Of a DNA stretch of 64,000 bases, positions 32,593-34,496 are shown piece by piece. Origin of the DNA: Corallococcus macrosporus DSM 14697 (lineage in GTDB: Bacteria > Myxococcota > Myxococcia > Myxococcales > Myxococcaceae); contig NZ_CP022203.1 in NCBI RefSeq assembly GCF_002305895.1, forward strand, positions 2,706,501-2,770,500, read 5' to 3'. How positions within the stretch are numbered: the stretch's first letter is position 1; the number at the start of each line of letters is the position of its first letter. The position numbers were made by a program, and so were the translations under genes. The notes beneath the pieces are model-generated. The model was not told the origin of the DNA, ran no database searches, and saw nothing but the letters and a program-made list of their open reading frames with translations.

Positions 32593-33009
32593 ATGCGGAT
32601 TGGCGAGCTGATGACCAAGAACCTGGAGACCATCGAGGCGGGGGAGCCCATCCGGGCCGCCGCGTTGAGGATGCGCACGTGCAACATCGGCTCCCTGCCG
32701 GTGCTGGAGAAGGGACAGCTCGTGGGCATGCTGACGGACCGGGACATCGCGGTCCGGTCCGCCGCGCTGGGACAGGACCCGAACACCACGCCCGTGCGCG
32801 AGGTGATGACGGCCACGGTCATCACCTGCGACGTGGACGCGACGCTCGAGGTGGCGGAGCAGACGATGGAGGAGAAGATGGTGCGCCGCCTCGTCGTGGT
32901 GGACGGTGAGCGGCGGCCCGTGGGGCTCTTGAGCCTGGATGACCTGGCCACGGTGCCGGAGGAGGTCCTCCACGCGGGCGAGGTGCTGGAGCGGCTCCAG
33001 CAGGTCTGA
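32593..33009 (+). CDS. Two-CBS-domain protein
   Basis: 138 residues consisting of a tandem CBS pair: first repeat [20 protein letters not shown] to [12 protein letters not shown], second [25 protein letters not shown] to [11 protein letters not shown]. Such stand-alone pairs bind adenosyl ligands (AMP, ATP, SAM) and regulate partners. Partner unknown. Start ATG 32593 with AAGGAGCG just upstream. Convergent with thrS, separated by a strong hairpin. Confidence 0.9.
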
Positions 33010-33063: not shown

Positions 33064-34269
33064 TCAGCAGGCGTCCGGGGCCGGCCGGCACGCCGCGACG
33101 AGCTCCGCCACCGCGGCGCCCCACGAGAGGTCCCGCTGCGCGCCGTCCCGCTGCCGCAGGCGGACGTTGCCCGCGGCCATCTCCCGCGCCCCCGCCACCA
33201 CCAGCCACGGGACACCGGCCGCGTGCGCGTCCACGACCTTGCGTGACAGGGACTCGCCCCGGCGGTCCACGCTGGCGCGGCAGCCCGCCTCCCGGAGCTG
33301 CGCGGCGAAGCGCTCGGCGTAATCTCCGGCCGCTTCACCCACGGCGGCCACCACCACCTGCCGCGGGGCCAGCCAGGCCGGCAGCGCGCCCCCGTGGTGC
33401 TCCAGCAGGACGCCGATGAAGCGCTCCAGGCTGCCCAGCAGCGCGCGGTGAAGCATCACCGGACGGACGCGGGCCCCGGAGGCGTCGACGTAGTGGAGGT
33501 CGAAGCGCTCCGGCAGCACGAGGTCCAGTTGGATGGTGCCGCACTGCCACGCGCGCCCCAGCCGGTCCTTCAGCACGAACTCCAGCTTGGGCCCGTAGAA
33601 GGCGCCTTCGCCCGGCTGCATGTGGCAGTGGAGCCCCGCTTCCCGCGCGGCGGCGAGCAGCCAGGACTCGGCCTTGTCCCAGAGCTCGTCGCGCCCCGCG
33701 CGCGACGCGGGCCGGCCGGAGAAGGCCACCTGGACGTCGTCGAAGCCGAAGCCCGCGTAGAAGTCCTTCAGTGAGCGGGCGAAGCCGACCACCTCCGGCA
33801 CCACCTGCGCTTCGGCGCAGAAGATGTGGCCGTCATCCTGGGTGAACTGCCGCAGGCGGAACAGGCCGTGGAGCGCGCCGCCGGGCTCCGCGCGGTGCAC
33901 CAGCCCGAACTCGCCCAGGCGCAGCGGCAGGTCGCGGTAGCTGGGCGCCATGCGCTGCACCAGCTCGATGTGGCCAGGGCAGCTCACCGGCTTCATGCCC
34001 AGGTGCCGCGCGCCGTCCTCCACCAGGAACATGTGCTGCCGGAAGTTGTCCCAGTGGCCGCTGCGCTCCCACAGTGGCTGCGCGTAGAGCTGCGGGGTGC
34101 GGACCTCCTGGTAGCCCTCGCGCCGCATGCGCTGGCGGACGTGCTCCTCCAGCAGCCGGTACAGCAGCAGTCCGCGCGGGTGCCAGAACACCATCCCGGG
34201 TGCCTCCTCCTGCAGGTGGAAGAGGTCCAGGCGTTGGCCCAGCGCGCGGTGGTCGTGTTCGTCGAGCAT
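33064..34269 (-). CDS. thrS: Threonyl-tRNA synthetase lacking TGS and editing domains
   Basis: 401 residues against about 640 for the usual enzyme. It starts directly at the class II catalytic core: motif 2 region FRLRQFTQDDGHIF, zinc ligands Cys in SCPGH, His in DDGHIF and His in VMLHRALLGS (motif 3), followed by the anticodon-binding domain. The N-terminal TGS and Ser-tRNA(Thr) editing domains are missing. Editing-less paralogues are known in cyanobacteria (induced by zinc shortage) and in some antibiotic producers. Catalytic residues look intact. GGAG precedes ATG 34269. The gene sits behind a threonine-codon leader and hairpin, so it is probably induced when Thr-tRNA is uncharged. A full-length copy is expected elsewhere in the genome. 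Confidence 0.92.
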   Translation of the reverse strand: MLDEHDHRALGQRLDLFHLQEEAPGMVFWHPRGLLLYRLLEEHVRQRMRREGYQEVRTPQLYAQPLWERSGHWDNFRQHMFLVEDGARHLGMKPVSCPGHIELVQRMAPSYRDLPLRLGEFGLVHRAEPGGALHGLFRLRQFTQDDGHIFCAEAQVVPEVVGFARSLKDFYAGFGFDDVQVAFSGRPASRAGRDELWDKAESWLLAAAREAGLHCHMQPGEGAFYGPKLEFVLKDRLGRAWQCGTIQLDLVLPERFDLHYVDASGARVRPVMLHRALLGSLERFIGVLLEHHGGALPAWLAPRQVVVAAVGEAAGDYAERFAAQLREAGCRASVDRRGESLSRKVVDAHAAGVPWLVVAGAREMAAGNVRLRQRDGAQRDLSWGAAVAELVAACRPAPDAC

Positions 34270-34315
34270 GGCTTCGTCTCCGATTCGGAAGGGTGAAACG
34301 CCATCCGGTCGGAGC

Positions 34316-34379
34316 GCTGAGCGAGCGCACGGTTGCCCCGGCCGGAGAAGGCGGGGCAGGGAACCGTGCGTTCGTCAGC
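34316..34379 (-). promoter_or_regulatory. Attenuator hairpin ahead of thrS
   Basis: Minus strand: outer GCTGA/TCAGC, main GCACGGT/ACCGTGC (bases 34369-34363 and 34333-34327), and inner TGCCCC/GGGGCA stems. The 5' arm, CGCACGGTTCC (34370-34360), can instead pair over 11 contiguous positions (one G-U) with GGAGCCGTGCG (34403-34393) in the leader frame, just after its Thr codons. The two structures exclude each other, as in amino-acid attenuators. There is no T run after the hairpin, so whether it terminates transcription, or acts another way, is open. Confidence 0.7.
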
Positions 34380-34460
34380 TCACCACGTGACGCGCACGGC
34401 TCCACGCCCGCCGAAGCGAGTCGTGGTGCCGGTGGTCGTGGTGGTGATGACGAAGCTCAC
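34380..34460 (-). CDS. Threonine leader peptide (26 aa)
   Basis: GTG at 34460 to TGA at 34380. After four residues it reads ITTTTTGTTT: eight Thr codons within nine positions (6-14), plus a ninth Thr at 25. This is the composition of attenuator leader peptides such as E. coli ThrL. A TTG three codons upstream (34469) is an alternative start. The predicted transcription start falls within a base or two of the GTG, suggesting a leaderless message. Inferred role: ribosome stalling at Thr codons when Thr-tRNA is uncharged, allowing thrS expression. Confidence 0.85.
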   Translation of the reverse strand: MSFVITTTTTGTTTRFGGRGAVRVTW

Positions 34461-34467
34461 GGCGAAC

Positions 34468-34496
34468 AAGATGCGAGGGGCGCCGGGAATTGTCAA
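34468..34496 (-). promoter_or_regulatory. Candidate thrS leader promoter
   Basis: Minus strand perfect -35 TTGACA (34496-34491), 17-base spacer, -10 CATCTT (34473-34468, three of six). Predicted start near 34461. Located 25 bases after the stop of the OPT transporter. Confidence 0.6.

Follow-up and report, generated by a model that had tools for sequence, protein, structure and literature searches.

A putative threonine attenuator upstream of an editing-less threonyl-tRNA synthetase in the Myxococcaceae

The leader RNA of thrS2, a gene for a short threonyl-tRNA synthetase (ThrRS) in Corallococcus macrosporus, appears to form a ribosome-mediated attenuator that would sense charged tRNA-Thr and control a back-up enzyme devoid of an editing domain. 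We put the probability of this reading at roughly 0.7; in the Myxococcaceae, such an attenuator most likely acts at the level of translation. All coordinates refer to the window, a stretch of 64,000 nucleotides from strain DSM 14697 (contig NZ_CP022203.1, positions 2,706,501 to 2,770,500). Within it, thrS2, its leader, and the leader RNA segments described below all lie on the minus strand.

The thrS2 gene (33064..34269) encodes a 401-aa ThrRS without TGS and editing domains. Upstream stands a leader peptide ORF (34380..34460), with a GTG at 34460, 26 codons (MSFVITTTTTGTTTRFGGRGAVRVTW), and a TGA at 34382-34380; 110 nt separate it from the thrS2 ATG. Nine of its codons specify Thr, eight of them within codons 6-14. 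The initial annotation had reported a Thr-rich frame of 26 aa before an editing-less ThrRS, and that frame is indeed present on the minus strand. The leader thus carries a cluster of codons for the very amino acid that the product of the downstream gene is predicted to charge (TIGR00418, above cutoff). The leader region folds to −116.3 kcal/mol, versus −84.2 kcal/mol in dinucleotide shuffles (z −6.6).

Six RNA segments, A to F, provide the alternative pairings. Segment B (34389..34412), at the end of the leader ORF, can pair with A or C; segment C (34350..34379), with B or D; segment D (34316..34346), the 3' arm of a long hairpin, with C or E; and segment E (GCUCCGACCGGA, 34304..34315), with D or F. 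Segment F (UCGGAG, 34278..34283) includes the Shine-Dalgarno (SD) sequence of thrS2, GGAG at 34281-34278. The A:B protector hairpin (CCACGaCUCGC-UUCG-GCGGGCGUGG, 34402..34426) lies over the last Thr codons. Two registers result: OFF, with A:B, C:D, and E:F, the last covering the SD; and ON, with B:C and D:E. The helices are mutually exclusive and have arms in common, and one of them overlaps the cognate codons.

This arrangement suggests the following model. Transcription would begin at or beside the GTG of the Thr-rich leader. With ample Thr-tRNA, the ribosome would run to the leader stop, C:D and E:F would form, and the covered SD would permit little synthesis of ThrRS2. When threonine starvation or inhibition of the housekeeping ThrRS makes Thr-tRNA short, the ribosome would stall on the Thr codons and hold A off B; B would then take C, leaving D free to take E, and the SD would open and allow synthesis of ThrRS2. 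On a leader free of ribosomes, A:B presumably would form first and set the OFF register. We infer the stalling, the folding order, the response to Thr-tRNA, and the activity of ThrRS2.

A search of 96 genomes of the family yielded 66 short-ThrRS genes, and a Thr leader precedes every one of them. The leader peptides have 23-28 residues, of which 6-10 are Thr; overall, Thr accounts for 30% of the residues and is concentrated in codons 6-15. The start codon is GTG in 56 leaders and ATG in 10. Both the leader frame and the alternative stems are kept in all 66 Myxococcaceae genes and in relatives from other phyla, the conservation by which the initial annotation had proposed to judge its claim. 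Control of the editing-less ThrRS by a peptide leader, as proposed there, accordingly is still the best-supported reading of these sequences. That annotation did not include the probable leaderless start, the A:B hairpin, the pairing of E with either D or the SD segment, the presence of another, full-length thrS in the genome, or the occurrence in other phyla.

The promoter assigned to the leader (34468..34496) consists of TTGACA (34496-34491), a 17-bp spacer, and CATCTT (34473-34468), which places the GTG 7 nt downstream of the −10 element. In every one of the 66 genes of the family, TTGAC stands 35-39 nt ahead of the leader's start codon (36 nt in 59), and the start lies 6-10 nt behind a −10-like hexamer, again in all (7 nt in 59). 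Identity among 17 diverged representatives, compared with the −35 element as anchor, is 0.29-0.38 upstream of the −35 element, 0.38 in the spacer, and 0.66 in the −10 element. Scanning for sigma-70 promoters under a strict −10 requirement gave none; the promoter is called from these comparative footprints. An SD-like 4-mer precedes thrS2 in 66/66 cases and the leader start in none (0/66). This lack, together with the −10-to-start spacing, suggests that the leader mRNA probably is leaderless, beginning at or beside the leader start codon.

The two parts of the leader ORF appear to be conserved for different ends. The same frame is kept in 98% of aligned cells of the Thr run, versus 66% in segment B. 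There, 44 leaders read the GGCGGG motif in one frame and 22 in another, and its retention in two reading frames implies a constraint at the level of RNA. Selection thus would preserve Thr codons at the front of the leader and RNA pairing at its rear. Such a division fits an attenuator and not a functional peptide. The view that the small ORF encodes a functional peptide, its position before thrS2 being incidental, could appeal to the presence of the ORF in all relatives; nevertheless it is extremely improbable, because different clades read the carboxyl-terminal part in different frames of a preserved RNA, and because conservation runs on through the non-coding segments C to F.

A CBS-domain-like gene (window 32593-33009) converges on thrS2 and is found again downstream of it in many Myxococcus relatives; on the upstream side of the leader, the neighbouring gene differs. 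Three thrS2 copies contain a single in-frame stop (G005:C31:58-1254, G006:C1:6435915-6437117, and G308:C1:1221872-1222804), and are either decaying genes or sequencing errors; the leader is intact before the first two (L041 and L044).

Sequence comparison establishes the leader, its promoter spacing, the alternative pairings, their conservation, and the single clade of the enzyme. The pairings were evaluated in alignment A1, comprising 64 distinct Myxococcaceae sequences. In the OFF register, 89.2% of cells are paired, versus 32-50% with one arm slid; in the ON register, 93.1%, versus 36-54%. Double-changed cells number 47 versus 16.6 in shuffles for OFF and 10 versus 3.3 for ON, although kinship alone can push related sequences above such shuffles. 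OFF pairs changed on both sides (6, versus 5.8 in shuffles) are not in excess. Covariation therefore appears partial, limited because many stem positions are invariant: the inner C:D stem is paired in 100% of cells over the 64 sequences, and the GGCGGG:CCCGCC part of B:C in 99%. The E:F pairing holds in 90.6% of cells, with a UA to AU exchange at one pair in 17 sequences, and A:B in 86.5%. The A:B hairpin is predicted in 22 of 22 sequences folded, and its loop in Myxococcus is mostly UUCG or UACG.

The B:C duplex reaches −43.9 kcal/mol in the window and −28 to −45 in 66/66 relatives. The D:E duplex spans −16 to −25 kcal/mol in all 66 Myxococcaceae, and at 48 loci from other groups it spans −12.7 to −26; E:F, at −11 to −18 kcal/mol, likewise can form in 66/66 Myxococcaceae. 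The initial annotation already had the long hairpin behind the leader, C:D at 34379-34316, and noted that the 5' arm of this hairpin can instead pair with leader sequence following the Thr codons; this B:C pairing turns out larger than the 11 positions given there. The hairpin-core pattern matched at two other places in the genome, no more than the reversed control would lead one to expect, and a second copy of the core was rejected.

An alignment-independent swap test, whose permutations ignore the tree, compared each sequence's own arms with arms from other clades. Own arms paired better for B:C (P 0.005), C:D (P 0.002), and E:F (P <0.0002). For D:E, P was 0.27 within the Myxococcaceae and <0.0002 over 35 sequences of all clades. 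The control pairings D:F and B:E gave no effect. Together, pairing, partial covariation, and swap tests lend support to both registers.

No U tract follows C:D in the window, and the observation in the initial annotation that the hairpin lacks a T run is correct. The 9 nt behind the hairpin contain a mean of 1.2 Us over the 66 Myxococcaceae leaders, 6.0 in the Bradyrhizobium group, and 5.6 in the Burkholderiaceae. The E:F energy follows the opposite trend: −19.4 kcal/mol in Myxococcaceae, −14.3 in Burkholderiaceae, and −9.8 in the Bradyrhizobium group. Thus, the hairpin plus U tract of an intrinsic terminator, missing from the window and from the Myxococcaceae, is found in the majority of relatives from Bradyrhizobium and Burkholderia sensu stricto, whereas a conserved E:F pairing over the SD is found in 66/66 Myxococcaceae. 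The lack of a U tract after C:D, together with the strong SD hairpin, makes a translational output most likely in the Myxococcaceae. The earlier suggestion that termination may proceed in another way is answered in part: for myxobacteria, the conserved E:F pairing points to translation.

The calculated cost of opening the SD is consistent with this output. In the Myxococcaceae, the median cost is 4.8 kcal/mol with D free versus 9.7 with D held by C, and it is cheaper with D free in 65/66; native D beats shuffled D for SD opening in 59/66. The corresponding costs are 1.4 versus 8.3 kcal/mol in the Burkholderiaceae and 2.6 versus 4.2 in the Bradyrhizobium group. Opening cost was used because an equilibrium simulation of stalling gave the right direction with a small effect: a stall at the Thr codons, compared with one at the stop, raised SD accessibility in 60/66, with modest medians of about 0.01 to 0.12. 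For the window sequence, however, E:F persists in the minimum-energy fold computed with D left free. Freeing of the SD thus would be partial at equilibrium, and the ON state would need folding kinetics or partial opening.

Classical transcription attenuation offers a different account of the same RNA: C:D would terminate in the Myxococcaceae too, as an unusual U-poor terminator or through Rho, and E:F would be secondary. The related Bradyrhizobium and Burkholderia leaders do end in a hairpin and U tract, and the C:D hairpin is long with an invariant core. This account is unlikely, if still to be taken seriously, given the U-poor sequence behind C:D and the strong, covarying E:F pairing, which pure termination would not require. 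Another account is autoregulation: E. coli ThrRS binds its own thrS operator, and blocks the ribosome via its N-terminal part. (This self-regulation is mentioned in PMC2965389.) Binding of the synthetase to its own leader in this style is nonetheless very improbable here, as it leaves the conserved run and frame of the Thr codons unexplained, and ThrRS2 lacks the N-terminal part. The initial annotation saw no T-box consensus, and agrees in this with an Rfam search of window and leader, which found neither a T-box nor another family; there was no match at gathering score in the window, and the leader gave hits at chance level only (E 1.7 and 3.6). T-box elements control thrS genes in Firmicutes, but a T-box or another riboswitch can here be given almost no credence. 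Ribosome-mediated attenuation, with a most likely translational output in the Myxococcaceae, is the best explanation of the leader.

ThrRS2 contains Pfam domains PF00587 and PF03129 only, a class II catalytic core followed by an anticodon domain. It scores above the TIGR00418 cutoff, aligned to model positions 170-549 of 565, and matches over its length the truncated E. coli ThrRS core 1evk. The genome, one contig of 8.97 Mb, has a second ThrRS, full-length, in a 662-aa open frame; the short enzyme is therefore an extra copy, hence the name ThrRS2. Examination of the housekeeping thrS for a Thr leader revealed none. Immediately ahead of that gene are a tRNA gene and a G+C-rich hairpin followed by five T (L002, ~405-765); the hairpin may terminate the tRNA transcript or control thrS separately.

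The residues needed for catalysis appear intact. ThrRS2 keeps the Zn ligands and, among others, Tyr462, Gly463, Arg363, and Gln381 (E. coli numbering); the Zn ligands Cys, His, and His, along with motif residues, are kept in 12-13 of 13 short ThrRSs aligned. With the catalytic and Zn residues in place, ThrRS2 should charge tRNA-Thr. Because it has no editing domain, some Ser-tRNA-Thr should also escape from it, except where the full-length enzyme removes this product. Its role is most likely that of a back-up enzyme under Thr-tRNA shortage. A bolder proposal, that the editing-less enzyme is switched on at Thr scarcity to permit substitution of Ser for Thr on purpose, appears distinctly unlikely.

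Short ThrRSs with a Thr leader extend well beyond the Myxococcaceae. They occur at five loci in other Myxococcota (L068, L069, L070, L075, and L103), as well as in Bradyrhizobium, an Azospirillaceae MAG, and Burkholderia and its relatives. The short enzyme was found in 20/146 sampled Bradyrhizobium and 17/249 sampled Burkholderiaceae genomes, with the leader present upstream of these genes. Leader and hairpin precede every short thrS examined in myxobacteria, Bradyrhizobium, and Burkholderia relatives, counting a few leaders with 2-4 Thr codons that fell below the script threshold and were identified by eye. In a tree of 70 ThrRS cores, which was quickly made, unrooted, and has some long branches, all short enzymes form one group (support 100) apart from the full-length enzymes; the group splits into a myxobacterial side (99) and a proteobacterial side (96).

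The simplest reading of these comparisons assigns different outputs to different clades: termination in Bradyrhizobium, where the hairpin probably works as an intrinsic terminator; both modes in Burkholderia sensu stricto; and SD sequestration in myxobacteria. The comparison is unrooted and does not order these outputs in time. The D:E pairing is conserved in the Bradyrhizobium loci L154-L172 despite their U tract. It looks unneeded there, since the U tract should suffice for termination, and this counts against the model. The chances seem evenly balanced that an old Thr attenuator moves with the editing-less ThrRS clade across phyla, with differing outputs, its myxobacterial form being a six-segment, leaderless, translational attenuator.

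Leader-peptide attenuators are well known from the trp, his, and thr operons. They share with the thrS2 leader a run of cognate codons within a short ORF and, as proposed for thrS2, alternating hairpins among which ribosome position selects; the thrS2 leader differs in its probable leaderless start, the single aminoacyl-tRNA synthetase gene downstream, the lack of a U tract in the Myxococcaceae, and the SD hairpin as likely output. SD sequestration as a means of translational attenuation is familiar from ermC, where alternating helices likewise end in an SD-sequestering hairpin. However, ermC uses a drug-dependent stall and four segments, whereas thrS2 would use starvation for the cognate codon, six segments, and a start without an SD. 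Streptomyces coelicolor TrpRS1 is controlled by ribosome-mediated attenuation. A passage of PMC9437257 cites it as an inducible, indolmycin-resistant second TrpRS. Both systems place an auxiliary synthetase behind a cognate leader peptide, for induction (in ThrRS2, by inference) when charging fails; that of TrpRS1 concerns Trp, is transcriptional, and confers a known drug resistance.

Other second ThrRSs offer further parallels. Anabaena ThrRS T2, with a degenerate editing domain, is induced by zinc shortage via Zur (PMC4787780); like ThrRS2, it is an editing-impaired second enzyme under stress induction, presumed for ThrRS2, which has no editing domain at all and a Thr leader in place of Zur. 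ObaO, an obafluorin-resistant second ThrRS, also stands beside a housekeeping enzyme, but has Ser at the Gly463 position (PMC11252418). All 13 short ThrRSs aligned keep the obafluorin-sensitive Gly there, and resistance of this type was rejected for ThrRS2.

Among leaders of synthetase genes, Streptomyces leuS has a leader-peptide attenuator (PMC1262725). Another case is thrL of Streptomyces lividans, described in one strain: a leaderless ORF before thrS with two Thr codons (MKRVRPFLETTPGFVPAR) and a hairpin without a U-rich stretch (PMC8079986). The myxobacterial leaders, similar in these respects, carry 6-10 Thr codons rather than two. The initial annotation held such control to be little described, which is broadly right, apart from this weaker Thr leader; a search of open-licence papers found no description of the thrS2 leader itself.

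The thrS2 leader provides a testable case of amino-acid-specific attenuation in myxobacteria, apparently one that starts without a ribosome-binding site. The presence of a terminator in some clades and an SD hairpin in others gives a handle on how attenuators change their output. Moreover, the model predicts that synthesis of the error-prone spare ThrRS coincides exactly with low Thr-tRNA, and the timing of ThrRS2 synthesis thus bears on inducible tolerance of ThrRS inhibitors and on translation fidelity in starvation.
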